Shown: positions 1 to 42,399 of the stretch, piece after piece
Numbering within the stretch: the first letter of the stretch is position 1
Layout of the letters: every line of letters begins with the position of its first letter
NCBI GenBank assembly: GCA_028718185.1
Contig: JAQUMH010000011.1
Location: 1-64,000, forward strand
Direction: 5' to 3'
DNA length: 64,000 nucleotides
Source: Elusimicrobiota bacterium
Lineage (GTDB): Bacteria > Elusimicrobiota > UBA8919
Made by a program: the position numbers and the translations under genes
Notes under the pieces: model-generated
Told to the model about the DNA's origin: nothing
The model's database searches: none
Seen by the model: only the letters and a program-made list of their open reading frames with translations

Positions 1-164
1 AAATCAGATTTTCAAAGACACAGAGGCTTATCTGAAAAACATAAAATTGCTTATTTGAAATGGTATATTTATTTAAAAAACCATTAAAAAAACAACATTT
101 TAGTACTATTAAGCCCGCAATGACAACTTGGAACATACAAAGAATCTTTTTAATTTATCGTTTA
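1..164. other. Left-edge leader, no gene seen
   Basis: This stretch lies 3' of the minus-strand aptamer at 165-244 and should be the leader of a gene beyond the left edge. No convincing reading frame crosses the boundary. Around 106-124 is a fragment matching part of the palindromic repeat at 56344-56416 (shared 'ttgtcattgcggg' on the minus strand). Confidence 0.4.
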
Positions 165-302: not shown

Positions 303-331
303 TTTATAACGCATTACTGGTTTTTTGTCAA
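303..331 (-). promoter_or_regulatory. Sigma-70-type promoter for riboswitch copy 1
   Basis: On the minus strand TTGACA (326-331) is followed by a 17-base gap and TATAAA (303-308). Transcription would start near 296, about 50 bases before the aptamer. The same arrangement, with related sequence around it, precedes riboswitch copy 3 at 42371-42399. Confidence 0.55.
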
Positions 332-25900: not shown

Positions 25901-27363
25901 GTGACTCCTTGTAGATTAACATTAAGAGATGGTATGTTCTTTTCTATATAAATAGCATATTGTTTGCCATCCTGAACCAGCGCCCACGCAGTTGTTCCGG
26001 AAGGAAGAGCTCCTGCTATAATTGAATTGTCAGGGTGCATGTTTACAAAATCAAAACTATCCATAAAACTCTTCAAAATTCCCATTTGAGTACGTAATGC
26101 CGGACCTCCGCCTCCGATAGTAAATGAGATTGATTTGTTGGTGAAATAATCGTAGCGAGAAGTATAGTAAGGTAGAACCTTTAAACCTGAACCTCCTCCC
26201 GGACCCGGAGTAAATGTTAAATCAAGCACAGCATATTCTGCACCGCCAGCCATTAACCATTTCCATCCAAAACAACGATATGGGGCATCGGCTATACCTA
26301 AATATGTAAGCTCATCAAGCCCTATAGGTATATTATGAAAGTAATTTTTTGCTATAGTATTGAGCGGAGGCCCGGAGTAGAAAAAAACAGACGCATTCGG
26401 GTTGATGTTATAAGTTGGTGCCCAACTGGCATTTCTACCTTGACAAATAAGGTGTTTTTTCGGAAGAGATGTCTCTGTCGTAACAAATTTAGAAATGATG
26501 TAATTGTCAAATTCGATTCCCCTAATACTACCACCCATCCAAGACTCTCCAATCGACTCGTAAATGACATTGTCAAATTCATTCAATTCCTGAACTATTT
26601 TAGTAACCATAGAAGACATATAGACCGTCAAACCGTCATTATGCAAACCATTATCGCGAATATCCCAAATACTATCGTCGCCAGTAGAAGTTAAATACGC
26701 AATGTTTCCCGCACTGTTAACATTATTGCTTATACCGTCAATATCATTACCTACACCAGGGAGACCATTTTTAACTCCGCTACCACCATTCATAGGAGAG
26801 CGTTCCCACATTTTACCTTTACTTGCCTCATTAAAAGGAAGGAAAAAAACAATTACTACCGCTATACCTCTATCATCAGCTTGCTTAATGAAATCTCTTA
26901 GGCGAGGGAAATATGAATTAGCCGGTGTGCCTGCATCATCCCACTTGGATAGGTCAAACTTGTAACTGTTCGGATCCCCAGCAAATCCTTTTTGAGTAGT
27001 GCTTCTTGCCCAAGGACAAAGAAAGCCGTTGTTAGTTGGACCAAGAGTATTATCGTCAATATTCCACCACCTGAAGGTGTCCGAAGCTATATTAACAGCC
27101 GGCTCAATATATGTTCCGGTAAATATGAGAGTATAATTTAGCCCCTTGTTCTTGAGTTCATCCAAATATGTGATATAATCAAAATCTTTATTTAATACCG
27201 CACCATAATGTTCATCAGAGGTAATCAGAACTGTTGGCTTACCTTTATAGAGAAAGTAACGATTGTTAATAGGATGAAGTTTTATCGGTTCTGAAGTTAC
27301 TACCGTGCCGCATGCTAATACCAATCCTGCAACTAATAATAAATACTTAAGAATTTTATTCAT
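22990..27363 (-). CDS. Secreted DUF4038-like TIM-barrel glycosidase with Ig, CBM6, ZU5-like domains and type B tag
   Basis: A 1457-residue exported protein. After a signal peptide (1-25) comes a clan-A-like TIM barrel resembling DUF4038 (about 25-460; PIKLHPINNRYFLYKGKPT, SDEHYGAVLN, VIYESIGESW, GLDELTYLG), followed by a collagen-binding-like beta domain (to about 535). Then follow an Ig domain, CBM6 (about 650-830; WAQPGEWLEYSINV), a GPI-anchor-type beta domain (SPNGGETW), another Ig domain, a purple-acid-phosphatase N-like Fn3 domain (AIITWTTDENSDTQVGYG), a ZU5-like region and a type B tag (KVYPTPYNP, WLEWDGKNDDGD). The last ~440 residues are almost identical to the protein at 33173. AAGGAG lies close before ATG 27363 (an upstream ATG at 27384 has no site). 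Confidence 0.87.
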   Translation of the reverse strand: MNKILKYLLLVAGLVLACGTVVTSEPIKLHPINNRYFLYKGKPTVLITSDEHYGAVLNKDFDYITYLDELKNKGLNYTLIFTGTYIEPAVNIASDTFRWWNIDDNTLGPTNNGFLCPWARSTTQKGFAGDPNSYKFDLSKWDDAGTPANSYFPRLRDFIKQADDRGIAVVIVFFLPFNEASKGKMWERSPMNGGSGVKNGLPGVGNDIDGISNNVNSAGNIAYLTSTGDDSIWDIRDNGLHNDGLTVYMSSMVTKIVQELNEFDNVIYESIGESWMGGSIRGIEFDNYIISKFVTTETSLPKKHLICQGRNASWAPTYNINPNASVFFYSGPPLNTIAKNYFHNIPIGLDELTYLGIADAPYRCFGWKWLMAGGAEYAVLDLTFTPGPGGGSGLKVLPYYTSRYDYFTNKSISFTIGGGGPALRTQMGILKSFMDSFDFVNMHPDNSIIAGALPSGTTAWALVQDGKQYAIYIEKNIPSLNVNLQGVTGTYKVEWVNTKTGNIDKTETFPHTGGTKVLIPPSYTDDIALRILDTADVQQPPVVSISTIGVINGSNPPATLTIKVNATAYDGKSINQVDFYNNSNNWIGTDTSSPYEFVWTVNNPGDYSITAKATDSGGLSKISTPPQVVTIGGTPPPPQHAYHPEDITSTLPWSVGSGTTTIQVEDYDMVTTGSGEGIAYHDRDTTNRSGLYRPNEGVDIGTDSDTGGGGYHVGWAQPGEWLEYSINVVQDGDYKIRLRSSNAPDITGPIHIEFIKTSSADIVTPSIIVIPDTIWRSIEVTPRISLTAGNQIMRLVMLDNVATYCGDLNYIELIRVSSGTVPPPPTITVTSPNGGETWPANSNQKVEWTIQGTWPIFVGNINIDLSTNGGTTWNTLVPSVPASNGSQVITIPNTPSTNCLIRVQSNGNGSPTDSSNANFTITAPDNILPIINITSPANNSIVPTSPITISGTASDNVGLKRVEVKVGVSGIYETATGLATWNKSGFSLVSGPNIIYARATDTSDNVKVATITVTYIPSTPPIITNVRASVTTNGAIITWTTDENSDTQVGYGTTTALGTVSPLDINMTRLHSVSITGLLKNKTYYYKVYSRDSSDNLATSSQYSFKTLNNIKHRIYTYYYDDGTTTTKVGASASASLKFKVQVYNLDENSLATDYTGTVTLTTKNSKSSVLDTTDSTLIEADAGEKEVAIPFRSDINTIELTGDVTAPVVINFSDMYIAKLVGYQGGSIRGSNGLKILIPTGVLSANKFLASIKTSAAPAVRNTMKYVNTVNPICYDFGELTFNNNAPVLENQVFTRAVNITIPYTKADIGTLNEDGLRIYYWTGTDWDLVTGVQTVDKANNTVTATVRHFSTYRILGSYVSADINNVKVYPTPYNPNTAVQGKLKIINLPMNCVMKLYSVTGEMVRELKEIDFGNLGWLEWDGKNDDGDKVGRGVYIYQIEDAAGSKKTGKIGLVK

Positions 27364-27466
27364 TGATCTCCTTGTTTTATACAAATTCTGTTATAGAGTT
27401 AAAACCCTATACCCTTTTTTCTAATTTTCAATATTCAATCTTCTTGACTTCGGACATTGGACATCG

Positions 27467-27584: not shown

Positions 27585-30500
27585 TCACTTTTCAACAGCA
27601 ATCTTTATTTTATTTACTCCGGTTGTCCCTTTTATATACAATATATATACTCCGCTGGCTACTGTATTGCCACTTTCATTTTTGCCATTCCACACCACAC
27701 TGCCGCTATTATTGCTATCACTTAGCTCCCTGACTAAATCGCCGCCTACCGTGTATATCTTTAATACCGCTCCCGCTGTCAGGTTCTCTATAATCATCCC
27801 CGCAGTATTTTTTAGTGGATTATATGGCATAGGATATATCTTTATGTTGCTTAAATCAGCTGCCGGCACTAACTCCAATAACGCAAACTTGCCTAAATGA
27901 CTGCTCTTTGCTACTACCTTGTTGTCAGCTGAGTATACTGTCGTAGGTAACGTTACCCAACGATTATTAACTTCATCATACCAGCCAAGAACTAAGTTGG
28001 CCTCTTTACTGCCGGTTATTCCACTGTCATCATAATTTATTGTTATAGTTACTTCCTTTACCGGTTGTAAATTCTTGTCATTTAGAATATTTACTCCATA
28101 CCCTACTACTTTTAATGCAGGCTTATTTGATATCGGCACATTTATTGCTGTCAGTGTCATGTTTACAGATTGGCTAAACGCTTCTTTAGGCACCACTAGA
28201 TTTATTTCGCTGTCTACACTGCTACTATCGTTTAAAGGCGTTACTGCCATGCCGCTGTTTATTAGTATTTGTGGATTTACTGTTCTTGTTACACTCAACT
28301 GCCTGCAAACATAATTCGCTTCTAGTAAATCACTACTTAATCCGCTGTAAGACATCTTCCTGGGCCAGAACCGTACATTACTAATATTTTCCGGCTCTAT
28401 AACATAACTGCCGGTTTGAGATATTCCGTTAAACTCGTAATACCCGTCATTAGTTATTGTTTCCGGTTCACTATACGGGTTAGCAGTAGTCATACATTCT
28501 TCAATACTATTTCCGGTTATCTTCATTATAACTTCAGCTATTCCGCAGCTGCCCTTATACTCCCGCACATTTCCTGCTATTACTAAATTACCGGAATCAT
28601 CTGTAACCGAAACAAGTGAAGGCGCAGCAAGAATACTGACTTCTTCTAATTGAACATCATCTATATAATATACATCGCCTGCTTTCGCGTATGATGCAAA
28701 CCAAAACTGTAGTCTGCCGTCACTAACAGTGCCGGTAAATCCGGTAGCAATAAACTCTGTAGTAAACTTCTGCCATGAAGTGGTAAGATTAAATGTCTTG
28801 CTTACACTGTAACTTGTATACGGCGAAACGTGTTTAAATATTCGCACCGATACATCATTGCCGGTTGTTGAATATCCGGAAAAACTAAGCCTATACTTAG
28901 TACCTGATTTAAGCGATATCCCAGTTTGATAAAGTTGTATATTTGTGCTGGCAGCAGTCACTGTGCATTTGCCTGCATAAGTTCCTGTATATCCCGGTGT
29001 TGATGCAGTAAATGACCCGCCGGCTCCGGCATAATATAACCATGAAGTTTTACCTGATTCAAAACCCGGATTTTTAACAATATTTGTGCTGACTGGCGGA
29101 GTGTAGGTTACTGTTATTGATATCGCCGGTGATGTGCCTGTCGCTCCAAGATTATCAGTAGCTACTGCAGTTAAACTGTAACTTCCCACTGCCGGTGTCC
29201 ATGTGTAACTGTAAGGTGCAGAAATATCCGTTGCAAGTAACGTGCTGCCTGCATAAAACTTTACACTAGCTACTGTCCCGTCGCTGTCAATAGCAGTACA
29301 ATTTATAGTTACAGAAGCACCGGTATTATATGTAGCCCCGTTTGCCGGTGCGGTTATACTTACCGTTGGTGATGCATTGCCCGGTTTCACTAATTTGATG
29401 TAATTGATATTTCCAACGTTATAATCACCTATGCTGTCCAACGCAACTCTCATCACCTGTTGGCCTGATGACAGAGAAACTGTTTTTGACACTGTTGTCC
29501 ATGTCTGATTGCCGCCGGTAGTTGGAACTGTGATGGGACCTGTTTTGTCAGTGCCGTTGAATTCTACGTGAAACTTTCCGCCAACACTTTCGGATGCCAC
29601 GCGGGCTTCCAATGTGTATGTCCCTGCAGTTACTACATTAACTGTATATTCCAGCCATTCACCTGCAAGTGTCCAGCCGATATTATAACCGCCGCCGGTG
29701 TCTGTTGTGGCTTCTATGTCTACACCATCTGCGGTTCTATATAAATTACCTTCATTTACGCCGTCAGTATCGTGGTATGCTACTCCTTCTCCGCCATTAT
29801 CAAAATCTTCTACCTGAATTGTGCCCGGTATGCTTCTTGCAGTTCCGCCGTATGGAGATTGCGATACTGGTGCAGTTATAGTAAAGTTGGCATTGGACGT
29901 ATCAGTAGGACTGCCGTCTGTCTCTGATACTCTTATACGACAAGTAGCGCTTGGCGTATTGGGTACTGTTACCGATTCACTGCCGTCGTTTGTTATGCTT
30001 GATTTTGAATTTAATATTGACCAAGTGGTTCCGCCATCAGTTGAAATTTCTATTTTAACATTACCTACTGTTCCAGCGCTGGTCCATGTTACTGTCTGGT
30101 TGCTATTTACAGCCCATGACTCACCACCGTTGGGTGCTGTTACTGTTATCGCAGGTGATACTGTGCTGCCGTATTCATAAGCTCCAATATCATAACCCGC
30201 ACCTTGTGGTCTTGTCGTGCCGGCATAATCAACTGATGGAACAAATGAAGCCGAAGAACCTTTATCTATCGCCGGAGATGTAGCTTGAAGATGGAAATCA
30301 GGTATACTTGTAGATATAAATAACGGATTTGAGGTTATAACGTTTGAACCTGAACCATATGGTTGTGTGCCATATACTACGTTATTAGTTATGGTAGCAC
30401 CTGCAACATCACTTCTAATTTGGAATGAATTATTATTTGCAAATATATTGTTTCGTATTATAATACCAGTCGCCGGAGTATACTCAAGATATATTCCACC

Positions 30501-31556
30501 TCTATCTGAATTTCCTATACCATTATTATATATTGTGTTGTTCTCAAATGTTACATTTTTTACAGTTCCTTGACTATCTCTTGTCAGTCTTAAGGCAGTT
30601 CCCGGATTATTGTATATTAAATTATTATATATATACACGCCATCAAGAACTCCGCCCGGTTGTTCTGATGCAACATTAATTCCATTGCAATCTGTTCCTG
30701 CATTCCTCTGATTGAATATTTTATTATTATATACTTGTATGTTACGTGCACCATTATTATATGCATCTATATATATACCTGAATAATCACAATTTGTGAT
30801 TGTATTATCATGAATCTTACCGTTAGATACACCATCTTTTGAATCAAACACTCCACCGAATGAATAACTGATATAGTTATTGAATATATCAAAATTGTTC
30901 TGCCCGCCTCCTACTGAAATCACTTCATGATTCTGAGTAGGATTTTGATTATGACCATTGTAAACAGTATTCCCTGATATAATAACACCTTGACCATATC
31001 CATTTGCAGCCATTCCACCCATTATAAGTATTGCAGACGCCCAAGTATCTTCAATGTAATTATTCGTAAACTCAATATAAGACGGAGCATTTTGACCGCC
31101 GCCTGATTTGTTTGCATATAAACCTGCATATCCGGAATGGATTATTCTTAAACCGTTTACTTTGATGTAAGATTTATCCCATATCTGGAATATTCCGCCG
31201 TCACGATTATTCGTAAAATCTACGCCGCTACCGTCAATTGTAACCGTATTACCCGGATATGCCGAGAAAGTAATGTATTTTCCGGCACTGCCTGAATTCT
31301 TAACATCAACCTGTCCTGTATAGGTTCCTGTTTTGATATAAACTGTATCTCCTGCCACTGCAGTACTGGCTCCTTTCTGTATGGTCCGCCACGGTGATGC
31401 TTCAGTTCCAGGATTTCCATCATTACCGGTTGTGGCAACATAATACGTTGCCGCATTAATAGTTCCCGCCGTTGCCAATCCAATCGCCATTACAACTAAA
31501 ACAAATTTCCTTATTGGTACTGCACGCATCATAAACTTTCTGATAACTGCACCCAT
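27585..31556 (-). CDS. Secreted beta-helix / CBM6 / CBM4-like multidomain protein with type A tag
   Basis: A 1323-residue exported protein. Signal peptide (about 1-36), DUF1565-like cap (YYVATTGNDGNPGTEASPWR), beta-helix to about 470, GPI-anchor-type domain (SPNGGESWAVNSNQTVTW), CBM6 (about 570-730; QVEDFDNGGEG, WTLAGEWLEYTVNV), Ig domain, CBM4/9-like jelly roll (about 825-1000; NIVKNPGFESG, YYIDDVQLEE), transthyretin-like and ZU5-like domains, and a FlgD-Ig tag (KIYPMPYNP, VVWNGKNESGN, ASGVYILY, ending KIAVEK) of type A. The cap suggests glycan lyase or epimerase-type fold, with the CBMs targeting polysaccharide. It directly follows the PorV-like gene at 31657 on the same strand. GGAG sits 8 bases before the ATG. 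Confidence 0.87.
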   Translation of the reverse strand: MGAVIRKFMMRAVPIRKFVLVVMAIGLATAGTINAATYYVATTGNDGNPGTEASPWRTIQKGASTAVAGDTVYIKTGTYTGQVDVKNSGSAGKYITFSAYPGNTVTIDGSGVDFTNNRDGGIFQIWDKSYIKVNGLRIIHSGYAGLYANKSGGGQNAPSYIEFTNNYIEDTWASAILIMGGMAANGYGQGVIISGNTVYNGHNQNPTQNHEVISVGGGQNNFDIFNNYISYSFGGVFDSKDGVSNGKIHDNTITNCDYSGIYIDAYNNGARNIQVYNNKIFNQRNAGTDCNGINVASEQPGGVLDGVYIYNNLIYNNPGTALRLTRDSQGTVKNVTFENNTIYNNGIGNSDRGGIYLEYTPATGIIIRNNIFANNNSFQIRSDVAGATITNNVVYGTQPYGSGSNVITSNPLFISTSIPDFHLQATSPAIDKGSSASFVPSVDYAGTTRPQGAGYDIGAYEYGSTVSPAITVTAPNGGESWAVNSNQTVTWTSAGTVGNVKIEISTDGGTTWSILNSKSSITNDGSESVTVPNTPSATCRIRVSETDGSPTDTSNANFTITAPVSQSPYGGTARSIPGTIQVEDFDNGGEGVAYHDTDGVNEGNLYRTADGVDIEATTDTGGGYNIGWTLAGEWLEYTVNVVTAGTYTLEARVASESVGGKFHVEFNGTDKTGPITVPTTGGNQTWTTVSKTVSLSSGQQVMRVALDSIGDYNVGNINYIKLVKPGNASPTVSITAPANGATYNTGASVTINCTAIDSDGTVASVKFYAGSTLLATDISAPYSYTWTPAVGSYSLTAVATDNLGATGTSPAISITVTYTPPVSTNIVKNPGFESGKTSWLYYAGAGGSFTASTPGYTGTYAGKCTVTAASTNIQLYQTGISLKSGTKYRLSFSGYSTTGNDVSVRIFKHVSPYTSYSVSKTFNLTTSWQKFTTEFIATGFTGTVSDGRLQFWFASYAKAGDVYYIDDVQLEEVSILAAPSLVSVTDDSGNLVIAGNVREYKGSCGIAEVIMKITGNSIEECMTTANPYSEPETITNDGYYEFNGISQTGSYVIEPENISNVRFWPRKMSYSGLSSDLLEANYVCRQLSVTRTVNPQILINSGMAVTPLNDSSSVDSEINLVVPKEAFSQSVNMTLTAINVPISNKPALKVVGYGVNILNDKNLQPVKEVTITINYDDSGITGSKEANLVLGWYDEVNNRWVTLPTTVYSADNKVVAKSSHLGKFALLELVPAADLSNIKIYPMPYNPLKNTAGMIIENLTAGAVLKIYTVGGDLVRELSDSNNSGSVVWNGKNESGNTVASGVYILYIKGTTGVNKIKIAVEK

Positions 31557-31656: not shown

Positions 31657-32667
31657 TTAGAATTTCACATTCATAGACACTTGGTGCGTATCACCTAAAT
31701 TGCCAAACGGGACAAACGCATAATCCAACTGGTATCCTTTATATCCTACCCCGCTGCCTAAACTTAAACCTTTTAACCCGCCTATGTCTTTTGTCTTCGC
31801 ATTATACCCTAACCTGCCTACTATATTTGTATCTTCATTCACTCTATATGTATACTCGCTTCCCATACCGCCAATAGCAACATTAATTGCCTTGTCATTT
31901 GATGCTTCTATACCGCCTACTAATAATAACGCATCCATAACCTCATACCCAAACCCTAACCTGACCACCATAGGCAAATTGTCAGCCTGGTCTTCATACT
32001 TTATCTTGCCGCCTACATTTTGCATTGCTAACCCTATACTAAGGTTACTGTCTGATTGTTTGTATAACAAACCTAAATCACCTGCTATCGCACTTCCGCT
32101 GTTCTTTATCTTACTGCTTATATATTTTATACCTACACCAATAGACAAGTCTTCGTTTAGCTTATTGCCGTAACTCAAAGTAGTGGAAGTGTCACTCGGA
32201 CTAAAACTGCTCTCTTCTACACCGTTCTCATCTGCGCCTTTTATAGTGCCGTAATTTAAATACTGAACTCCTATACCTATTACGCCTATTCCTGTTACAG
32301 GATGTTCATACCCTACATAACTGTAACCTATATCAGCTAACCACATACTATGCATTATGCTTATTGCAGGTCTATCTAATCCGGTTAATCCGGCTTCGTT
32401 CCAATAAATAACACTGGCATCGCCGCTGCCTACTACACCTACGCCGCCAAGCCCTATGTACTTTGCACCTGCACCTAACTTAAGGAACTGGGCGCCGCTG
32501 GTGCCGACAGATGCCTTGTTAAATGATGCGCTTGTGTTACTGGAAGCAAGAAGCAAGAGGCAAGAAGAAAGAAGAAAGAAGAAAATACTGGATTTAAGAT
32601 TGAAGATTAAAGACTTTAAACCTCGGACATTGGACTTCGGACATTGGACTGACGTTACTCTCTTCAT
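31657..32667 (-). CDS. PorV/PorQ-family outer-membrane protein
   Basis: A 336-residue beta-barrel of the PorV/PorQ family, which in type IX secretion shuttles C-terminally tagged cargo. Family hallmarks: GAQFLKLGAGAKYIGLGGV and VIYWNEAGLTGL near the N-terminus, and repeated beta strands (LSIGVGIKYISSKI, IGLAMQNVGGKIKYED). The N-terminal ~48 residues include a signal peptide encoded by simple word repeats (32525-32665): poly cttctt/cttgc words become the hydrophobic core FFFLLSSCLLLLA. The 5' leader contains a GEMM-like aptamer (33000-33079) and a double hairpin. GGGGA lies 7 bases before the ATG. Confidence 0.85.
   Translation of the reverse strand: MKRVTSVQCPKSNVRGLKSLIFNLKSSIFFFLLSSCLLLLASSNTSASFNKASVGTSGAQFLKLGAGAKYIGLGGVGVVGSGDASVIYWNEAGLTGLDRPAISIMHSMWLADIGYSYVGYEHPVTGIGVIGIGVQYLNYGTIKGADENGVEESSFSPSDTSTTLSYGNKLNEDLSIGVGIKYISSKIKNSGSAIAGDLGLLYKQSDSNLSIGLAMQNVGGKIKYEDQADNLPMVVRLGFGYEVMDALLLVGGIEASNDKAINVAIGGMGSEYTYRVNEDTNIVGRLGYNAKTKDIGGLKGLSLGSGVGYKGYQLDYAFVPFGNLGDTHQVSMNVKF
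32525..32665 (-). repeat. Word repeats inside the signal-peptide coding region
   Basis: The N-terminal coding part of the PorV-like gene consists of tandem words: gtccaatgtccgaagtcc, then taatcttcaatcttaaatc, then cttctttcttctttcttctt and gcctcttgcttcttgctt. The same words appear in non-coding gaps near 7230-7265, 22887-22985 and 27440-27465. Confidence 0.6.
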
Positions 32668-32728
32668 AAATATTTCCCCATTAAAAACTATTCTTATGTT
32701 CTAATGTTCTCTTGTTCTTGAGTTGATG

Positions 32729-32804
32729 ATCCCGATTTCTATTTATAACAGAATATGTTATCGGGATTGTTTATTTTAGTCTCCGGTAGGGGACTCAAAT
32801 AAAC
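32729..32804 (-). ncRNA. Double hairpin leader motif, copy B
   Basis: Minus strand: hairpin 1 (32769-32804) GTTTATTTgaGTCCCC-tacc-GGAGACtaAAATAAAC; hairpin 2 (32729-32767) ATCCCGAT...ATCGGGAT, then catcaac. The copy at 41893-41967 has altered stems that keep pairing. Not a family I can name. Confidence 0.55.
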
Positions 32805-32999
32805 AAAAAAAAAGCGTACCAGAAAACTAACTAAATAGTTATTAGGTGTATTCTTTAACCTAATTAACTAATTCGCTAATTCTCTAATCCACTTCTTTCT
32901 GTTTTCGATAACCTTGCTAGCTTGATAGTCCAGGTATTTATTTGTTGTCTTTCTTTATCTTTACCTCTACCTTTACCTGTTTTTCTTATTTGTCGCTTA

Positions 33000-33079
33000 T
33001 CGGCAACTTGTTGGGTTACACTATCTTAGCCCTTGGTTTTGCGAACTCATCAAGGTTTCCCTTGAGCAGCCTTTTCGGA
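33000..33079 (-). ncRNA. c-di-GMP-I (GEMM)-like riboswitch aptamer, copy 2
   Basis: Minus strand: ccgaaaaggc, then CTCAAGG-GAAA-CCTTGATGAG, tcgcaaaacc, gggctaag and caacaagttgccg. The GAAA-capped stem has different base pairs from copies 1 and 3 (CTCCTGC...GCGGGA), so structure is kept while sequence changes. It lies about 330 bases before the PorV-like start at 32667. Confidence 0.65.
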
Positions 33080-33084
33080 ATTAT

Positions 33085-33172
33085 ATAAAAGTTATAGAGT
33101 TTTAGGGTTTTAGCGTTATAGGGTTTTAACTCTATAAACTCTATTAACTCTATTAACTCTATAACACTTCTC
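33085..33172. repeat. TATAGAGTT word-repeat with inverted ends
   Basis: GTTATAGAGTT at one end pairs with AACTCTATAAC at the other, with gggtttta and actctatta words between. Lies between the stop of 33173 and the aptamer, possibly a terminator or folding spacer. Confidence 0.45.
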
Positions 33173-36100
33173 TTATTTTATCAATCCGAACTTACCTGTC
33201 TTCTTGTTACCGGCAGCGTCTTCTATCTGGTAAATATATACTGCTCTACCTACTTTGTCACCATCATCATTCTTACCATCCCACTCGAGCCAGCCAAGAT
33301 TACCAAAGTCTATTTCTTTGAGTTCCCTGACTTTTTCACCCGTTACACTATACAACTTCATTATACAGTTCATTGGTAAATTAATTATCTTCAACTTACC
33401 CTGAACCGCTGTATTAGGATTATATGGGGTCGGATACACTTTAACATTACTCATATCAGCAGATACATAACTGCCCAATATACGATATGTTGAGAAGTGT
33501 TTGACTGTTGCGGTTACCGTATTGTTTGATTTATCTACTGTCTGGATTCCTGTAACCAATTCCCAATCTGTACCGGTCCAGTAGTAGATTCTAAGTCCAT
33601 CTTCGTTTAATGTCCCTATATCCGCTTTTGTATATGGTATTGTTATGTTAACTGCTCTTGTAAATACCTGGTTTTCCAATACCGGCGCATTTCCGGTTCC
33701 AAATGATAACTCGCCAAAATCATAACATATCGGATTAACTGTATTAACATATTTCATTGTGTTCCTAACTGCCGGCGCTGCACTCGTTTTTATTGATGCA
33801 AGATACTTGTTTGCAGACAGGACACCTGTGGGTATCAGTATCTTTAAACCGTTGGAGCCTCGTATTGAACCACCCTGGTAGCCTACTAATTTCGCTATAT
33901 ACATATCACTGAAATTTATCACTACCGGAGCTGTAACGTCTCCGGTCAGTTCAATTGTATTTATATCGCTACGGAACGGGATTGCGACTTCCTTCTCTCC
34001 TGCATCTGCTTCAATTAAAGTTGAATCAGTAGTATCAAGGACACTACTCTTGCTGTTCTTGGTTGTAAGTGTTACTGTCCCGGTGTAATCGGTCGCTAAA
34101 CTGTTCTCATCCAAATTATATACCTGAACCTTGAATTTCAAACTTGCTGATGCTGATGCTCCTACTTTGGTTGTCGTTGTCCCGTCATCATAGTAATAGG
34201 TATATATCCTGTGCTTTATGTTATTAAGTGTCTTAAAACTATATTGTGCTGATGTTGCAAGATTGTCTGATGAGTCACGGCTATAGACCTTATAATAATA
34301 GGTTTTGTTCTTCAGTAACCCGGGAATGGAAACACTGTGTAACCTTACTAATGTTGAATCTAATGGAGTTGTGGTGCCTAATGCCGTTGTTGTGCCATAT
34401 CCTACCTGAGTGTCGGAATTCTCATCGGTTGTCCATGTTATTATGGCACCATTTGTTGTTACACTGGCTCGGACACTGGTTATTATCGGCGGAGTAGGAT
34501 CATTTTTAGTAGTTGTAAAACTGTAATCACCACTCGTTGTTATATTGCCATTCATATCTACAGACACTATCCTGTAATGATAAACTGTGTTTTGGGTAAG
34601 TCCGCTTAGTGTAACACTGTGAGTGTATACACCAGCGATATCTGTTACTGTCGTTGCACTTCCATAACTTGTAGTTAAGCCATACTCTATCTTACTGTTT
34701 GCAGGTTCATTTGTCGTCCAAGTTACAACTACTCCGCTACCCGTTATGCTTGTTGGTGTTACCACACTTACTGATGGCGGTGTTGTATCTGCAGTTAGGC
34801 TTATTAACTTAATATAATCAAAATTACCAGCATCTGTACTACCGGAGTCCATTACTAACTTCATTATCTGGTCGCCTGCTGTAAGTGTTATTGAATTTGC
34901 AACTGTTACATCTGTAAATGTCTGCCATCCACCGGTATTAGGTACACTTACTGATGGGGTTACAATGTTTGTTGCATCATGCGGACCAAATTCAATATGG
35001 AACGGAGCTGAACCTGAAATTCCACGACCTGCTCTCGCTATTACTTTGTAGTCACCACCTTGATTTACATTTACACTGTATTCCAACCACTCGCCAGACT
35101 GACAATACCCTACATCGTAGCCATTACTGGCAATAGCGATTGATTCTATATCTACACCTTCACTTGCTCTGTATGCACCACCACGGTTAATAGAATCACT
35201 ATCATGATATGTCTTTTCAGCAGACGTACCACTTGGCACCCAATCGTAATTTTCTGCTTCTATCGTTGTTGTCCCTGTTACTATCTGCCATGGAGTTCCT
35301 GCTGGTGTGTTGCCATATGACTGTTGAGTTGAAACACTTGTTACTGTATATGCGACACTATTTACAGAACTGTCAGTCATAGTAGCTTTAAACGCACGAG
35401 TTCGGACTGTTGCACTTGCTGTTAGTGTAAACGGTGCAGAATATAGTGTTGAAGATGATGTCGGATCTGTTCCATCTGTCGTATATCTTATTTCCGCTCC
35501 GCTGGTTGCACAGCCAAGTGTTACAGTAACAGAACCTGAGTATGGTCCTGCTGCCGGGCTAATCGTAGGTGTTGCTACTGTATTAGGCGCCTCACCACTT
35601 ACCTTTATTAATTCAATGTAATTTAAATCGCCACACCATGTTGCAGCATTTGCTTCCATTACCAACTTCATTATCTGGTTGCCGGCGGTTAAGGCTATTC
35701 TGGATGAAACTTCTATATCACGCCATACTGTATCTGCTGCTACTGTTATTGCTGGCGTTATTTTATTAGCTGAACTATCCTTGATGAATTCTATATGTAT
35801 AGGTCCGGCACTAGCAGGAGCATTGCTTGCTCGTAGCCTTACATTATAATCGCCGTCTTGTGCCACATTTATGCTGTATTCAAGCCATTCTTCTGGCTGG
35901 ACATAACCTACATGATACCCACCACCTGTATCACTTGTATTACCATATACATCTACACCCTCGCTTGGTCTATATGATCCTCGGTTAGTAGTATCTCTAT
36001 CATGGTATGCCACGTTCTCTCCACCTGTATCGTAATTTTCTGCCTGTATCGTTGTTGTTCCGGAACTTACCGACCATGGCAATGTTGAATTTAGATCTTC

Positions 36101-39100
36101 AGGGTGATATGCATGCTGCGATGGTGGTGGAGTACTACCTCCGACTGATACTATCCATGCTGCAGATGTCGTAGTAGCATTATTATTATCGGTCGCTTTC
36201 GCTGTTATACTGTAATTCGCTGAGCCTGCAGGAGTTACCCATACACATTCGTATGGCGCACTGTTATCTGTTCCAAGTAATGTACTGCTATTGTAAAAAT
36301 CTATTTGTTTTATACCTATACTGCTGGGTGTGCTAGTCGCATCTGCTTTTATTGTTAATGTAGCGGGCGGATTACTGCCATTTATTACTCCTATTGTGCT
36401 TATACTTACAACTGGCACACCGACATTATCTAGTATCCGTAGTGCTATATCAGTACCACTATAACTCGGAACAGTTATACTTTGGCTACCTGTTGCGGTA
36501 AATGTTTGTGGTGTCCCCACTACCTTCAATGTCCCGTCTGTGTTCAAATTTAAGACATCAATCCACTCGGCTTTATAACTGCCGGCTTGTAAATTAGTGG
36601 CCGTAAAAGAAACTGGTTTGGTTGCAAAATAATAAACCTGTTGTTTATTACCATTATTACCAAGCAGCCCTATTGAACCACTAGGTGCCGAACCATTAGG
36701 TACCATTTTTACAAAATTAACAGAATGAATAAATTTTTTCAAAATCCCCAATTGAGTACGTAACGCTGGACTTCCACCAAGAAGATCATCATATCCGCAA
36801 GGGGTTTGATTAGCAGAAAATGAACCATCTGCGTGAGGCGTGGTGAATGATAAATCAAGCATGTTATATAGTGCACCACCCTTCATGATCCATTCCCATC
36901 CCCAACCACGATAAGTACCATCTGCTTTCCCTGCATATGTAATCTCATCATTTCCCAGAGGTATATTGAAACTCAAGTAATTACTAATATAACTGCCGGT
37001 AGCGTGTGCATCCCAGTTAAGAAAAGACACACCCGGATTAACTGCACCAATACCTAAAGCACCATTTTGAGAAATAATGTGTTTTTTCGAAAGTGATAAC
37101 TCTGCCGCAACAATTTTAGAATTAACGAATTGCTCAAATGTAGTTCTCATAACAACACCAGGATGAGCATCTGTTCCATCACCCTTATAAGTCTCAATAC
37201 CCGGCTGATAAATGACATTGTTATATTCATTTAACTCCTGAACTATTTTAGTAACCATAGAAGACATATAGACCGTCAAACCGTCATTATTGTTAATATC
37301 CCAGACCATATTAGAACCAGTGGTATTCCAAGATACTGTATTTCCTACACTGTTGACATTATTACTTGCCTTCATGGGAGAGCGGTCCCACATATTAGGA
37401 AGCGCAAGTGTTCCGGCATCATTACACCAGTAAGGACAGAAAAAGACGAGTTCTACTACTATACCTCTATCATCAGCTTGCTTAACAAAATCCTTGAGTC
37501 GGGGGAAATATGAATTAGCTGGCGTGCCTGCATCATCCCACTTGGTTAAGTCAAACTTGTAGCTGTTTGTATCCCCCGCAAATCCTTTAACAGTAGTGCT
37601 TCTTGCCCAAGGACAGAGAAAGGCGCTATTAGTTGGACCAAGCGTATTATCCCAAATACCCCACCAACGAGGAGTACACATATACGGATTTGGCTCAATA
37701 TATACTCCACTAAATATGCGGGTATAGTTAAGTCCTTTGGATTGGATTTCATTCAAATATGTGATATAGTCAAAATCACCATTCAATACTGCACCATAAT
37801 GTTCATTAGAGCCAACCAGAACTGTCGGCTTATTTTTGTAAGTAAAGTAATGATGATTGTCAGGATTAAGTTTTATCGGCTCTGCCGGAGCTTGTGGTCC
37901 CGGTGTTCCCGGTGTCACAGTCAAATCACGGTATGCTGAATCTACCACCTTAGTCATATCTGCATACGTTTTACTATCATAAAGCCCCAGTGTAAAATGT
38001 GCAGGTAATACACTCATATACCCTTGATTATCTGGACTAGTTGGATCAGATGAACCTGTCCAACCATTTCTACCAAATCCAAATACTGTACAATAATCAT
38101 CTGACTGGTACTTGATTCTCCAATTTGAATCTACTAAACTATCATCTTCGTGATGTGCAAAGAAAAGAGAACGGGGATTGGTAATAGAACTATCTTCAAA
38201 ATATACCCACTCAGGAGTTATGTCACCCACCCATGCGTTTGCAGTAGCTTGGTCGCAATCAAGTAAATTTCTTGTTCCATTTGACCGGACACAGGCATCT
38301 GTTGTATTCCACGCACCGCCACCCGGTACTCCTTCATATAAAAACCAATACTTGTGACCAGCTTTTGTAAGTGTCATCTTTGCATATTTCGGATATATAT
38401 CCCAATAACACTCCCATCGCCCGCCACTATCTACATATGAAAAAATCTTTGTCTTAACCGGACCTACACTAACAAGGCTACTTGAACCATTAATAAAATT
38501 AGGATGAAAACCGCCTTCAGGATGGATCATGTTAGGTATCCCTCGGTATTGATTGCCTAGGGTACCTGCTGTTGTATAACCTACCCAGTCGTTACCATCT
38601 TTATCAACAATGCTTGAAAATGCACATCCTGCTTTGGAATAATAATATGTTGCATTCTGCGTCATTATTTTATAACTGCTATGTCCTTCATCTATTACAC
38701 CGTCCGTTACTGTTACCTGATTAGCAAAATTGCCGACAGACATAGTCTCATCTGTATCAAAAAATATTTTAAAATACCTGCTTGTATTTGCCAATGTGAG
38801 TCCGTCCATGATAAAGGTAATAATACCGGATGCATTACTTGACGCACTATAACCTGCATCCTTCTCAAATTGGAAAGCAATATTTTCTTTGCCGGTTTTA
38901 AGATTACCTGAACTATCCGTCTCTTTGACTCTTAATGAACCTTCAGCAAAATTCCCGCTGAAACCAACTTCACTAATATATGATGAAAAATTAACCGATA
39001 CTTCTACCGGCTTGTCATATCTTTCATAACTGCCGGCTGCAACCGTTACAGGCAGATACCCTCTTGGGTTTCCGTTTTGCACCGAAGAACCTGTATATGT

Positions 39101-40750
39101 TGCGGTCGCTGTTGGACTCCCATTCTTACCTGTTGCAAATGCCCTTGATTTTAATGTGCATGCGCCATAAATGGTCTTATTACTCCATATATCAGATGTT
39201 GAAGTAACAGGTGAGTTGTCTGTTGTATATCTTATGGTATCACCTGCATCACAGGTTATTGTTACTGCTAAAGGTGTTTCTCCGCTTGTCGGGCTTATTA
39301 CCGGCACATGCGCTGTAGGCAGACCACCAGTAGTATATTTCACTAATATCATCGGTCCTGGCCAGTTTATCTCAAGTGCATGATGTTGTGTATTGCACTT
39401 CGCATAAAATGTGTTTACGCCAGCTGTTAGAATACTTACATTTGGAATATCATAAGTATTAAAAGCGGGAGCCATCTCTGCGCCTATCGGACCTACATAT
39501 TGGCCGCCAGCATCCACTAACCTTGTACCATTGATACCAAATTCACGTATAGAAGCAGGAAGAGTAGTTTGATTGTTAGTAAGTATTTTGTGAGTGAAAA
39601 GATCATTTTCCTCTCCTACGCCATTCCATGTATGTACAATAAGTTTTGCAGCTGTTGCGTTGTCCATTGTATCAATGTTATAATGACAGGTCTTCTCTGG
39701 TGACCAAGTAGCGATATCAAAGCCCGCTGGAACATCATATGAGGAAATTAACTTTACATTATATGTGGTCCTGGATAATGTAAGGCCGTCAACTGTATCT
39801 GTGATATAACACATACCGTCGTTACCTACTATGCGAGCTAACACCTTCATTGGTTGGTCCTGATCAGGTATCCAAGTTGTATCCCATGTTACTGTGACTT
39901 GTCCTGATATATTAGGAATACCAGTGCCTATATGTCTAAGAAGTGTACCGTCTCTATATGTATGATGCCAGTTTTGAAAACGACCATCGCCTTCCCAATT
40001 AATATCTTTATACCATCCTATAAAGTCCACTTGTCTTATACCACCTGTATATGCAGGCACATTGGCAGTGAAAATCGGACTATCGCCTAATGCACTTCCT
40101 GGAGTCGGTGAAGTGATAGTACCTGTAGGATGAGCTTTTGAACTGCTATAATAAACACGCACTGTAGTTGAATATATCCATAAAAATGGCATGCCAATAG
40201 GCTGAGAACCAGCAGTAAAATAAACTCTATTATCACCTGCAACTATTGAGCCTGCACCAGTTAATGGAACAGCTGTTGCCACTGTGTTATATAAACATCT
40301 AAAGTAATTATCACCACGCTGAGATGTACCAACAGGTAGTGGTAAAGGTACCCACGGTGCAGCAGAATTAAGATTACGATTCACACTAAACGTTTCATCT
40401 AATGTACCACTATGTCCACCCCATTGAGATATATATATTTCCGCTTTTGTTGCACCGGCAGTATCAATTCCAGTCACAACCAGATAAGGGGCCGGATTTC
40501 CCCCATATTTTTCTAATAAACACCCTCCAAATCCGTGACCTGAAGGAGTTCCATCTGCATTAAGAGCTTCTGCGGTGTATGGATTTCCACAAACAGCAAA
40601 ACCAAAATACCAGCCTGCTGCTACTCTGGTAAAATCTTTATAAATATTGTCAGCAGTCCCGGGATAAAAATCAGCCCAACTTTTTGTTACCATACAACTT
40701 ACAAACATTATCGCTACTAACATCATACACCATCTGATAATCTTACCCAT
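33173..40750 (-). CDS. Giant secreted multidomain glycan-active protein with type B tag
   Basis: A 2525-residue exported protein, the largest here. Signal peptide (1-27), a unique beta-rich N-terminus (about 28-490), a chitobiase C-type domain (ISPTSGETPLAVTI), an enzyme-associated beta region (about 570-970), then a DUF4038-like clan-A TIM barrel (about 975-1440; FTYKNKPTVLVGSNEHYGAV, PLGNDEITYAG). There follow Ig, CBM6, chitobiase-like, a second CBM6 (IEAENYDWV, YCQSGEWLEYSV), two Fn3/PAP-N-like domains, a ZU5-like region and a type B tag (KVYPTPYNP, WLEWDGKNDDGD). Its last ~440 residues nearly match 22990. It is preceded by the PorV-like gene at 40860 on the same strand. Likely a multi-modular surface polysaccharide-degrading enzyme; exact substrate unknown. 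Confidence 0.87.
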   Translation of the reverse strand: MGKIIRWCMMLVAIMFVSCMVTKSWADFYPGTADNIYKDFTRVAAGWYFGFAVCGNPYTAEALNADGTPSGHGFGGCLLEKYGGNPAPYLVVTGIDTAGATKAEIYISQWGGHSGTLDETFSVNRNLNSAAPWVPLPLPVGTSQRGDNYFRCLYNTVATAVPLTGAGSIVAGDNRVYFTAGSQPIGMPFLWIYSTTVRVYYSSSKAHPTGTITSPTPGSALGDSPIFTANVPAYTGGIRQVDFIGWYKDINWEGDGRFQNWHHTYRDGTLLRHIGTGIPNISGQVTVTWDTTWIPDQDQPMKVLARIVGNDGMCYITDTVDGLTLSRTTYNVKLISSYDVPAGFDIATWSPEKTCHYNIDTMDNATAAKLIVHTWNGVGEENDLFTHKILTNNQTTLPASIREFGINGTRLVDAGGQYVGPIGAEMAPAFNTYDIPNVSILTAGVNTFYAKCNTQHHALEINWPGPMILVKYTTGGLPTAHVPVISPTSGETPLAVTITCDAGDTIRYTTDNSPVTSTSDIWSNKTIYGACTLKSRAFATGKNGSPTATATYTGSSVQNGNPRGYLPVTVAAGSYERYDKPVEVSVNFSSYISEVGFSGNFAEGSLRVKETDSSGNLKTGKENIAFQFEKDAGYSASSNASGIITFIMDGLTLANTSRYFKIFFDTDETMSVGNFANQVTVTDGVIDEGHSSYKIMTQNATYYYSKAGCAFSSIVDKDGNDWVGYTTAGTLGNQYRGIPNMIHPEGGFHPNFINGSSSLVSVGPVKTKIFSYVDSGGRWECYWDIYPKYAKMTLTKAGHKYWFLYEGVPGGGAWNTTDACVRSNGTRNLLDCDQATANAWVGDITPEWVYFEDSSITNPRSLFFAHHEDDSLVDSNWRIKYQSDDYCTVFGFGRNGWTGSSDPTSPDNQGYMSVLPAHFTLGLYDSKTYADMTKVVDSAYRDLTVTPGTPGPQAPAEPIKLNPDNHHYFTYKNKPTVLVGSNEHYGAVLNGDFDYITYLNEIQSKGLNYTRIFSGVYIEPNPYMCTPRWWGIWDNTLGPTNSAFLCPWARSTTVKGFAGDTNSYKFDLTKWDDAGTPANSYFPRLKDFVKQADDRGIVVELVFFCPYWCNDAGTLALPNMWDRSPMKASNNVNSVGNTVSWNTTGSNMVWDINNNDGLTVYMSSMVTKIVQELNEYNNVIYQPGIETYKGDGTDAHPGVVMRTTFEQFVNSKIVAAELSLSKKHIISQNGALGIGAVNPGVSFLNWDAHATGSYISNYLSFNIPLGNDEITYAGKADGTYRGWGWEWIMKGGALYNMLDLSFTTPHADGSFSANQTPCGYDDLLGGSPALRTQLGILKKFIHSVNFVKMVPNGSAPSGSIGLLGNNGNKQQVYYFATKPVSFTATNLQAGSYKAEWIDVLNLNTDGTLKVVGTPQTFTATGSQSITVPSYSGTDIALRILDNVGVPVVSISTIGVINGSNPPATLTIKADATSTPSSIGIKQIDFYNSSTLLGTDNSAPYECVWVTPAGSANYSITAKATDNNNATTTSAAWIVSVGGSTPPPSQHAYHPEDLNSTLPWSVSSGTTTIQAENYDTGGENVAYHDRDTTNRGSYRPSEGVDVYGNTSDTGGGYHVGYVQPEEWLEYSINVAQDGDYNVRLRASNAPASAGPIHIEFIKDSSANKITPAITVAADTVWRDIEVSSRIALTAGNQIMKLVMEANAATWCGDLNYIELIKVSGEAPNTVATPTISPAAGPYSGSVTVTLGCATSGAEIRYTTDGTDPTSSSTLYSAPFTLTASATVRTRAFKATMTDSSVNSVAYTVTSVSTQQSYGNTPAGTPWQIVTGTTTIEAENYDWVPSGTSAEKTYHDSDSINRGGAYRASEGVDIESIAIASNGYDVGYCQSGEWLEYSVNVNQGGDYKVIARAGRGISGSAPFHIEFGPHDATNIVTPSVSVPNTGGWQTFTDVTVANSITLTAGDQIMKLVMDSGSTDAGNFDYIKLISLTADTTPPSVSVVTPTSITGSGVVVTWTTNEPANSKIEYGLTTSYGSATTVTDIAGVYTHSVTLSGLTQNTVYHYRIVSVDMNGNITTSGDYSFTTTKNDPTPPIITSVRASVTTNGAIITWTTDENSDTQVGYGTTTALGTTTPLDSTLVRLHSVSIPGLLKNKTYYYKVYSRDSSDNLATSAQYSFKTLNNIKHRIYTYYYDDGTTTTKVGASASASLKFKVQVYNLDENSLATDYTGTVTLTTKNSKSSVLDTTDSTLIEADAGEKEVAIPFRSDINTIELTGDVTAPVVINFSDMYIAKLVGYQGGSIRGSNGLKILIPTGVLSANKYLASIKTSAAPAVRNTMKYVNTVNPICYDFGELSFGTGNAPVLENQVFTRAVNITIPYTKADIGTLNEDGLRIYYWTGTDWELVTGIQTVDKSNNTVTATVKHFSTYRILGSYVSADMSNVKVYPTPYNPNTAVQGKLKIINLPMNCIMKLYSVTGEKVRELKEIDFGNLGWLEWDGKNDDGDKVGRAVYIYQIEDAAGNKKTGKFGLIK

Positions 40751-40764
40751 AACTAAACCTCCAA

Positions 40765-40858
40765 TTTCCTGAAATTTATTGAAACTTATTGAAATTTGTT
40801 GAAATTTGTTGTTTTATTTCTATTAATTTCTACTAATTTCTATCAATTTCTAATTTCT
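40765..40858. repeat. GAAATTTATTG / TTTCTATTAA word-repeat spacer
   Basis: Tandem 'attgaaacttattgaaattt' words followed by 'tttctattaatttctactaa' words, as at 17040-17235. It separates the PorV-like gene from the giant protein. Confidence 0.5.
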
Positions 40859-40859
40859 A

Positions 40860-41807
40860 TTATTTATTTCCAAACCTTATACCAAGCGATATTCTATGCG
40901 TGTCGCCTAAATCTTTTGTCGGTATAAATGCATAGTCTATATTAAAGGTTGAACTTTCTCCAGCTATCTTAAACCCGCCGCCTAATGTGTAACTCTCTTC
41001 ATCATAGCCGAGCTTATATCCTGCCCTGATTCCTACCATCTCCGCTATTATTAACTCCATTCCTATGTTCTCTTTTATACTGGCACTGTCTAACCCGTAA
41101 TTAACATCTGCTGCTATCGTTAGGTTGTTCTCGCCTTCAAATGCTGATAGCTTTTTACCTATTCCCGCTTTTATGTTGCCTGGCAAACTATCGCTGCCTA
41201 CTTTACCACCTATGTTCTGAACCACCAGACCTAATTGTAATCCGCCTTTTACAGGAACATACTCTACTCCTAAGTCTAATCCAAAACCACTAGCACTATC
41301 GCTATCTATTTTTGAGGTTACCATCTTCAAACTACCACCTACATTTATTGTCTCATCTACCTGCTTGCCGTAACTTATCGCTCCACCCATATCCTTCGCA
41401 CTATAACTGCCTGCACTGCCTACCGCATCATATGCTCCACTTGCATCTTCTAATGTCTTATCCATACTGCCGTAATTAAGATACATTATTTGTAAACCTA
41501 TTGTGGAACTTTCATTTACAGGATGTCCCATGGCCAGATACTCATAATTTATTCCTTCATAAAGTGATAAATGCATAAATGATAGTTCGGTCGCACTCAC
41601 TGAACCTAACCCTGCCGGATTCCAATATACGCTATTGACATCTTCAGCTACTGCTACCTGTGCGCCGCCCATGCCTTCCTGTTTAGCGCCTATGCCTACT
41701 TTCAAGAACTGCATCGCTGAACTGCTTACACCGGCTTCTAAGTTACCCATACATATAGTACCTACTACCATGACTGACAATATCAGTGTGCTTATCGCTT
41801 TGCGCAT
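40860..41807 (-). CDS. PorV/PorQ-family outer-membrane protein (second copy)
   Basis: About 315 residues from 41807. Signal peptide MRKAISTLILSVMVVGTI, then MQFLKVGIGAKQEGMGGA and VNSVYWNPAGLGSV typical of PorV/PorQ barrels, and closing strands such as FNIDYAFIPTKDLGDTHRIS. Probably an outer-membrane cargo shuttle or receptor for tagged proteins; the giant tagged protein at 33173 follows directly. Starts: ATG 41807 has AAGGAGG 5 bases before it and begins exactly at the signal peptide; ATG 41849, in the same frame, also has GGAGG 5 bases before it and would add 14 charged residues; TTG 41861 is less likely. The leader holds a GEMM-like aptamer and the double-hairpin motif. Confidence 0.85.
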   Translation of the reverse strand: MRKAISTLILSVMVVGTICMGNLEAGVSSSAMQFLKVGIGAKQEGMGGAQVAVAEDVNSVYWNPAGLGSVSATELSFMHLSLYEGINYEYLAMGHPVNESSTIGLQIMYLNYGSMDKTLEDASGAYDAVGSAGSYSAKDMGGAISYGKQVDETINVGGSLKMVTSKIDSDSASGFGLDLGVEYVPVKGGLQLGLVVQNIGGKVGSDSLPGNIKAGIGKKLSAFEGENNLTIAADVNYGLDSASIKENIGMELIIAEMVGIRAGYKLGYDEESYTLGGGFKIAGESSTFNIDYAFIPTKDLGDTHRISLGIRFGNK

Positions 41808-41892
41808 ATTAACCTCCTTGTTCTTAATTTCGTTTATTGCGTTTTTCATAAAAACCTCCAATTTACTACTGTTCTTGTGTTTTCGGTTGATG

Positions 41893-41967
41893 ATCCCAAT
41901 TTTTATTTATAACTGAATATGTGATTGGGATTGTTTTATTGGTCTCCGGTAGGGGACTCAATAAAAC
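41893..41967 (-). ncRNA. Double hairpin leader motif, copy A
   Basis: Minus strand: hairpin 1 (41933-41967) GTTTTATTgaGTCCCC-tacc-GGAGACcAATAAAAC, hairpin 2 (41893-41931) ATCCCAAT...ATTGGGAT then catcaacc, ending about 34 bases before the GGAGG. Stems differ from copy B at 32729 but remain paired; loop and 'gaGTCCCC/GGAGAC' core are fixed. Confidence 0.55.
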
Positions 41968-42060
41968 AAAAAAAAGAAGTTCAATAGATATTTAGTTGTT
42001 TAATTTAGCAAATTAAGTTCATTTCAATCTAATTCGCTAATTAACTAATTCTCTAATTAA
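41968..42060 (-). terminator. Candidate regulated terminator in the PorV leader
   Basis: Minus strand: GAAGTT...AACTTC directly before eight T bases, with an inner TTAATTAGC/GCTAAATTAA pairing. It lies between the aptamer and the gene and could be the expression platform. In copy 2 the corresponding T-run (32805-32813) follows a less tidy hairpin. Confidence 0.45.
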
Positions 42061-42068
42061 CTTCCTTT

Positions 42069-42090
42069 GTTTTCGGTAACCTTGTTGGCT
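42069..42090 (-). repeat. Second copy of the aptamer's 3' edge
   Basis: Minus strand AGCCAACAAGGTTACCGAAAAC repeats the aptamer's own closing segment (AGCCAACAGGTTGCCGATAA). The matching second copy in the other PorV leader is at 32901-32922. The spacer between the two copies differs: here it holds the CACAAGCG hairpin at 42097-42121. Confidence 0.5.
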
Positions 42091-42132
42091 TGATAGCCAC
42101 AAGCGTGTAAACCGCTTGTGGTTTGGCGTTTA

Positions 42133-42212
42133 TCGGCAACCTGTTGGCTTTCACTATCTTAGCCCTTGGTTTTGCGAACTCATCCCGCTTTCGCAGGAGC
42201 AGCCTTTTCGGA
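42133..42212 (-). ncRNA. c-di-GMP-I (GEMM)-like riboswitch aptamer, copy 3
   Basis: Minus strand: ccgaaaaggc, TCCTGC-GAAA-GCGGGA, tcgcaaaacc, gggctaag, gccaacaggttgccg. It lies downstream of a clear promoter (42371-42399) and about 280-330 bases before the PorV-like start, so it should be transcribed in the leader of that gene. Confidence 0.66.
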
Positions 42213-42275
42213 ATCTATGCGCGGAAGTCGGAGCCATTGCACCGACTGAGCACATGACCCCGCAATTTGCGGGGT
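42213..42275 (+). repeat. Repeated GCGCGGAAGTCGG element (copy E)
   Basis: Plus strand: tctatgcgcgga, then AGTCGG-agccattgca-CCGACT, then gagcacatga and hairpin CCCCGCAATTTGCGGGG. Copies on the minus strand lie at 48656-48727 and 53139-53239, both before genes. Here it sits in the leader of the PorV-like gene but in the opposite direction. Confidence 0.55.
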
Positions 42276-42370
42276 AAAACAACATAAACTTCTTTTGCCT
42301 CCTTTTTGCACATCAACTACCTACTACTCGCTATTTGCTTACACCTAATCTTTTCTTGTGCTTCACTACA

Positions 42371-42399
42371 TATATAACGCACTTCTATTTTTTTGTCAA
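42371..42399 (-). promoter_or_regulatory. Sigma-70-type promoter of the PorV-like operon
   Basis: Minus strand: TTGACA (42394-42399), 17-base gap, TATATA (42371-42376). Surrounding sequence matches the promoter of riboswitch copy 1 (303-331), e.g. TTGACAAAAAA and TGCGTTATA. Confidence 0.6.

Follow-up and report, generated by a model that had tools for sequence, protein, structure and literature searches.

Two PorV/PorQ-family genes lie behind leaders in a 64,000-nt stretch of an Elusimicrobiota genome (bases 1-64000 of contig C11, starting at contig base 1; hereafter the window), which raises the question of what these leaders are, how they would act, and whether they tie a cyclic dinucleotide to protein export. 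An earlier note on this DNA had read them as c-di-GMP-type riboswitches gating a type IX-like route. Our analysis of the window and of its genome (3.03 Mb, 27 contigs) indicated that the leaders are probably variant GEMM-I riboswitches, amplified here, with a single 5' half that can pair with either a near or a far 3' half, and that they would control PorV genes and the associated cargo.

Identity of the leader elements

The three GEMM-like elements that the earlier note had placed on the minus strand were confirmed (Table 1). The Rfam test that it had proposed went the other way, with the window copies falling under the curated cut-offs. At gathering thresholds, Rfam gave no match in the whole window; by E-value, copy 3 (42131-42213) matched RF03167 at 22.9 bits (E 0.54, cut-off 59) and copy 1 (164-245) matched RF01051 at 22.4 bits (E 4.8, cut-off 35), while copy 2 was unlisted even in this search. 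Across the genome, RF01051 gave 13 matches, several of them canonical members; six were above the cut-off, and seven weaker ones (E 6e-5 to 1e-3) were near-identical siblings of the window copies. A covariance model built from ten sequences of the window genome (R1) recovered 33 strong copies there, at 90-116 bits. Because the window copies were among the training set of R1, a second model (R2) was trained solely on sister-genus loci, some of which themselves scored above the RF01051 cut-off. As the sibling copies and the independent model were significant, the Rfam null was not read as absence. Judged from sequence, the window elements appear to be a GEMM-I-type variant that is homologous to confirmed members through R2 and stands outside Rfam-threshold membership.

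Table 1. Features of the window discussed in the text (positions of the window; all on the minus strand unless marked otherwise).
Feature	Position	Strand	Evidence or remark
Copy 1 near aptamer	160..244	-	R2 E 1.7e-16; far half and gene past contig end
Copy 1 promoter	303..331	-	Promoter boxes TTGACA-17-TATAAA
1464-aa secreted putative cargo, C-terminal T9SS-type domain	22990..27384	-	NF033707 C-terminal match, residues 1342-1449
1323-aa secreted putative cargo: beta-helix, CBM6, weak C-terminal FlgD_ig	27585..31556	-	Domain search
PorV/PorQ-family gene (copy 2)	31657..32667	-	NF033709 197.5 bits (cut-off 90); PF19572 45.7 bits
Copy 2 terminator-like hairpin and T-run	32805..32900	-	Predicted -35.1 kcal/mol
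Copy 2 far 3' half, CTATCAAGCTAGCAAGGTTATCGA	32905..32928	-	U at C92 position; far favored by 7.3 kcal/mol
Copy 2 near aptamer	32995..33080	-	R2 E 1.1e-16; near 3' half weaker, AGTT replaces GGTT
2525-aa putative cargo, CBM6 domains and C-terminal T9SS-type domain (33197-33544)	33173..40750	-	Pfam; NF033707 C-terminal 31.5 bits
PorV/PorQ-family gene (copy 3)	40860..41861	-	NF033709 172.4 bits (cut-off 90)
Copy 3 intrinsic-terminator-like hairpin and T-run, GGAAGTT...AACTTCTTTTTTTT	41968..42070	-	Predicted -26.2 kcal/mol
Copy 3 far 3' half, CTATCAAGCCAACAAGGTTACCGA	42073..42096	-	Far pairing favored by 3.1 kcal/mol
Copy 3 spacer hairpin, CCACAAGCG...CGCTTGTGG	42097..42127	-	Fold -15.5 kcal/mol
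Copy 3 near aptamer	42128..42213	-	Shared 5' half and near 3' half; R1 115.4 bits, R2 E 1.3e-18
Copy 3 promoter	42371..42399	-	Promoter boxes TTGACA-17-TATATA
GAF-GGDEF protein	62538..63701	-	Domain search and motif reading; GGDEF motif, I-site RRTD, Asn at base-selectivity position (GHLAGN)

The structure of the aptamer was well preserved. Among 42 sequences, the P2 helix was paired in 99.2% of cells and five of its six pairs were changed on both sides, as expected from the observation in the earlier note that the GAAA-capped stem varies between copies yet stays paired; for the whole-structure values, 0 of 500 shuffles were as good. The ligand-contact nucleotides G20, the A of CGCAAA, and C92 were present in all three near aptamers, and copy 3 carried G20, the whole CGCAAA, and C92. 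The structure line of the Rfam entry, with background on such aptamers, served to assign these positions, and C92 is taken, on the same basis, to be the first C of CCGA. The canonical 11-nt tetraloop receptor (CUAAG...UAUGG) was absent from the window copies on a by-eye reading, while the GAAA loop was kept.

The 33 copies are recent paralogues, and counts within this genome are not independent. Four contigs (C11, C19, C25, and C26) start or end at or near such leaders; as the assembly breaks at leaders, the true number is probably higher than 33, and the gene behind copy 1 was lost to a break. When public genomes were scanned for the pattern, two contigs matched and no others, both from Elusimicrobia bacterium RIFOXYD2_FULL_34_15. 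The promoters of copies 1 and 3 were nearly identical, as had been noted before; copy 2 had no good promoter and lay approximately 90 nt after the upstream open reading frame. Palindromic elements (CGGTGCAGTAGCTCCGACCTGCGAGTGC, CCCCGCAAATTGCGGGG and kin) occurred before and after many leaders, for example at 42216-42290, and are apparently dispersed genomic repeats.

One 5' half and two competing 3' halves

Wherever the sequence extended far enough, in 32 of 32 copies, a second, far 3' half (CTATCAAGCCAGCAAGGTTACCGAAAAC) followed the aptamer; these copies were 30 full leaders and two truncated at the end of a contig. In copy 1, the contig stops short of the far half. The far half lay 9-117 nt downstream of the near half, and the two compete for the shared 5' half and cannot both pair with it at once. 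With two alternative 3' halves per leader, the aptamer is not an ordinary one. Most of the 30 spacers between them formed a hairpin, of unrelated sequence. The P3 contacts AACC/GGUU and GGCU/AGCC are common to both halves, and GATAG/CTATC extends the helix in the far half. The extension helix had another sequence in the sister genus and other genera, still matching, as in L054, where GACAAAAGTC is paired with GACTTTTTGTC.

When genera were compared, covariation with the 5' strand was seen for both 3' strands. A permutation test on eleven diverse loci gave -15.0 kcal/mol for a locus's own far strand versus -10.7 kcal/mol for shuffled ones (p 5e-5), and -13.1 versus -9.4 kcal/mol for the near strand (p 1e-4); with loci of families f5 and f6 added, p was 2e-5 for the far and 0.015 for the near strand. 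Elsewhere in the phylum, a second half was found in 10 of 38 other f1 loci and in a few loci of f5, f6, f9, f19, and f21, at a motif background of 1.6% in shuffled downstream sequence. Some of these second halves outside the window genome were partial mimics of a 3' half, and the downstream strand of the f9, f19, and f21 cases matched P3 only.

The two halves differed at the ligand contact, as near halves had C92 in 32 of 32 cases and far halves in 19 of 32, the other 13 having U (Fisher p 5e-5, a value that overstates independence, the copies being paralogues). From this difference and the foldings given next, we infer that the near pairing is the ligand-bound form and the far pairing its ligand-free competitor. 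Folding of successive prefixes gave the near pairing a probability of approximately 0.9 in most copies before the far half exists, followed by a flip to the far pairing. Complete leaders favored the far pairing in 28 of 30 cases, by a mean of 3.7 kcal/mol in predicted energies, which ignore ligand and tertiary contacts. The near pairing would form first during transcription and would be the form that binds c-di-GMP; unless ligand locks it, the far half would capture the 5' half through its longer P3 helix.

The same energies could be taken to mean that the far half is the sole functional 3' half here, within an ordinary GEMM-I aptamer that has a large P3 insertion, the near half being transient or vestigial. 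In some copies, the RF01051 alignment took in the far half (matches of 144-145 nt and 125 nt), and the near helix of copy 2 is degraded, which fits that view along with the thermodynamic preference in 28 of 30 leaders. We consider it unlikely, since C92 is present in all 32 near halves and lost from 13 of the 32 far ones, and the near strand co-varies with the 5' strand too. Copy 2, with a poor near helix, reached a near pairing probability of 0.01 in the prefix folding; combining this weak helix with a far half that carries U92, the leader before the 31657 gene may be impaired.

Under the preferred reading of two competing halves, the outcome for transcription would depend on the terminator. 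In the amplified copies of the window genome, the terminator begins just past the far half, and the predicted terminator formed equally in the near and far states. A strand that would free it was sought by folding in the window genome, and none was consistent among the copies. In a minority of copies, folds constrained to the near state gave somewhat more pairing between the free far half and the terminator's 5' arm, an effect too weak to claim. A helix between the 5' flank (CACTAATCC) and the terminator arm (GGATTAGTG) was considered and rejected, as it occurred in some copies only. Conserved hairpins after the terminator (GAGTCCCCTACCGGAGAC) were likewise rejected as part of the leader and judged to be genomic repeats, because several leaders were without them.

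In L044, L053, and L078 (f1), in L086 (f5), and in L005, a divergent copy within the window genome, an intrinsic terminator had the far half itself as its 5' arm. This arrangement gives OFF logic by inspection in the five loci. In relatives built in this way, which belong to f1, f5, and probably also to f6, binding of ligand to the near form would free the far half and cause termination, whereas without ligand the 5' half would hold the far half and transcription would continue. The sister-genus genome that is the source of L044 has other loci, such as L061, in which a single 3' half is the terminator arm, and these should be ON switches, going by their sequence. L086, which precedes a gene for a PilT-like twitching ATPase and has a far half that is a clean terminator arm, is a good simple test case for the model of two 3' halves.

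Association with PorV, SprA, and a type IX-like route

The genes behind copies 2 and 3 both belong to the PorV family, in line with what the earlier note had proposed, scoring above the cut-off of the PorV_fam subfamily and short of the equivalog cut-offs for PorV and for PorQ. The open reading frame at 40860-41861 opens at TTG; ATG 41849 or 41807 is the likelier start, each preceded by a ribosome-binding-like GGAGG, and several PorV paralogues likewise have two possible starts. Genome-wide, there were 53 PorV-family matches, 44 over the cut-off, and 23 of the 44 genes were preceded either by a leader of this kind or by a c-di-GMP-I aptamer of canonical form. Seen from the leaders, 22 of 33 lay 328-497 nt before a PorV domain, with some of the remainder before secreted proteins and one before a prepilin-like gene. 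A riboswitch before the SprA-like gene of the window genome itself was sought and not found.

The association held across the phylum. RF01051 matched in 50 of 199 sampled genomes, and 107 aptamer loci were read, all outside the window genome. A PorV gene lay within 1450 nt after 31 of the 107 c-di-GMP-I loci (30 genomes) and a SprA gene within the same distance after 6 of 107, versus PorV or SprA in 0 of 53 upstream control stretches. The PorV association is independent of the expansion in the window genome. NCBIfam models were applied to 11 of the PorV proteins, and ten scored over the cut-off, the eleventh, which is truncated, reaching 86.8 of 90 bits; SprA was found in six of six SprA-linked loci, below its cut-off. 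The aptamers at these six loci (L103, L109, L145, L150, L168, and L175, from six other Elusimicrobiota genomes) stand directly upstream of the SprA-like genes. At five loci of several other families (L050, L074, L076, L144, and L158), the PorV frame begins 0-7 nt past the last conserved bases of the aptamer, a spacing that suggests translational control or a terminator that lies within the first part of the coding sequence.

These data also bear on whether the leaders regulate anything. Recent, partly decayed duplicates riding a repeat-rich PorV cassette, followed by a constitutive or leaky terminator, would be highly similar to one another, surrounded by repeats, and below threshold in Rfam, as the copies are, and the terminator was coupled to neither state in the folding model. 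We regard such passive carriage as improbable, given that compensatory changes hold P2 paired in 99.2% of cells, the ligand-contact positions of the near half are invariant, the dual architecture recurs in other genera and families, and the PorV association extends over the phylum independently of the expansion.

The genes downstream of the PorV genes encode very large CBM6, Ig-like, or beta-helix proteins. The leaders stand at the front of operons in which a gene for a PorV-family shuttle comes before genes for large proteins of the glycan-binding or beta-helix type, and this position suggests that, if the leaders are regulatory, the cyclic-dinucleotide level could choose which PorV/cargo sets of a type IX-like export route are made. 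Two genes resembling GH123-family hydrolases (12261-13952 and 18469-20241) were also present in the window, consistent with glycan use.

The earlier note's proposal that c-di-GMP gates type IX-like export was supported in the association with PorV, which our analysis widened to SprA, and a full type IX secretion system (T9SS) was not recovered. A SprA-like open frame of 1733 aa had three matching stretches (best 62 bits, cut-off 200), and the C-terminal sorting domain TIGR04183 reached 21.8 bits against a cut-off of 23. PorU-like C-terminal domains (NF033707) were found in about 50 proteins of the genome, all below the full-model cut-off; the NF033707 matches in the genome covered C-terminal domains only, giving no PorU catalytic region. 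GldM/PorM (TIGR03517) had no match in the genome, although divergent forms could escape this model. With neither a PorU catalytic region nor GldM detected, we call the route type IX-like. The 44 PorV paralogues and about 50 PorU-type C-terminal domains amount to a large expansion of T9SS-like shuttles and cargo for a 3 Mb genome. Taken as a whole, the interpretation in the earlier note was partly supported.

The GGDEF protein at 62538 had been named in the earlier note alongside the riboswitches. Its place, GGDEF motif, and I-site were as described, and the active site that had been called intact was not, as it reads GHLAGN and not GH..GD; the only tie between this protein and the leaders is that they share the window. 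The other three long GGDEF proteins of the genome have the canonical Asp (GH..GD). Hypr GGDEF proteins, which synthesize cGAMP, have Ser or Thr at the base-selectivity position (PMC6456294), and an A at position 20 of the aptamer is the cGAMP-type nucleotide (PMC9481103).

The signal could be 3',3'-cGAMP, or both dinucleotides, instead of c-di-GMP. This would suit the A20 found in 12 of the 31 aptamers linked to PorV in other genomes of the phylum and the missing canonical Asp of the window protein. For the window genome we think it a slim prospect: G stands at position 20 in all 33 copies, unlike the cGAMP-type (GEMM-Ib) aptamers, three GGDEF proteins with the canonical Asp are at hand, and the window protein has Asn where published cGAMP synthases have Ser or Thr (GacA position 347/348; PMC6456294). 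We infer that c-di-GMP is the ligand of the amplified leaders.

Relation to known systems and implications

GEMM-I riboswitches, tandem GEMM-I aptamers, and T9SS are already known. The leaders resemble c-di-GMP-I riboswitches (RF01051, RF03167) in P2 with its GAAA loop, the CGCAAA junction, G20, a GGUU-R-CCGA 3' half with C92, and a predicted transcriptional expression platform. The window copies differ from them in scoring below the cut-off, lacking the 11-nt receptor, and having a complete second 3' half downstream. In the GEMM-I riboswitches Cd1 of C. difficile (OFF) and pilM of G. metallireducens (ON), the aptamer's own 3' strand swaps its partner (PMC9262584); termination is predicted to be controlled through competing strands here as well, but with one 5' half common to two 3' halves. 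Tandem c-di-GMP-I riboswitches repeat GEMM-I parts within one leader (PMC9481103, PMC4759541), as these leaders do, but they repeat complete aptamers (PMC9481103), whereas here only the 3' half is repeated, which makes the two forms mutually exclusive.

On the protein side, PorV_fam members, together with a SprA-like frame and numerous candidate C-terminal sorting domains, parallel the PorV shuttle, Sov/SprA translocon, and CTD cargo of the Bacteroidota T9SS; the 44 PorV paralogues, the riboswitch leaders, and the lack of a detectable PorU catalytic region or GldM set the route apart. The 62538 protein is similar to the Hypr GGDEF enzyme GacA (PMC6456294) in having no Asp at the base-selectivity position and differs in having Asn rather than Ser or Thr.

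The earlier note's remark that the link was undescribed held up, as no description of riboswitch control of PorV or SprA was found in the literature searched, which left out most subscription papers. A 5' half shared by two 3' halves was not described in the same literature either, which is not proof of novelty.

These comparisons raise the prospect, which we put forward tentatively and rate at a little under even, that the leaders represent a new architecture, in which a duplicated 3' half turns an ON switch into an OFF or two-threshold switch. More than 30 copies in one lineage would then let cyclic dinucleotides choose among dozens of PorV/cargo sets, and the T9SS-like system would be under GEMM-I control throughout the phylum. 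Duplication of its own 3' half would be a simple route by which a riboswitch changes its logic, and a second messenger would be tied through RNA to type IX-like export across a mostly uncultured phylum. For both the link between messenger and export and the change of logic, short transcripts would suffice in vitro, with no culture of the organism.
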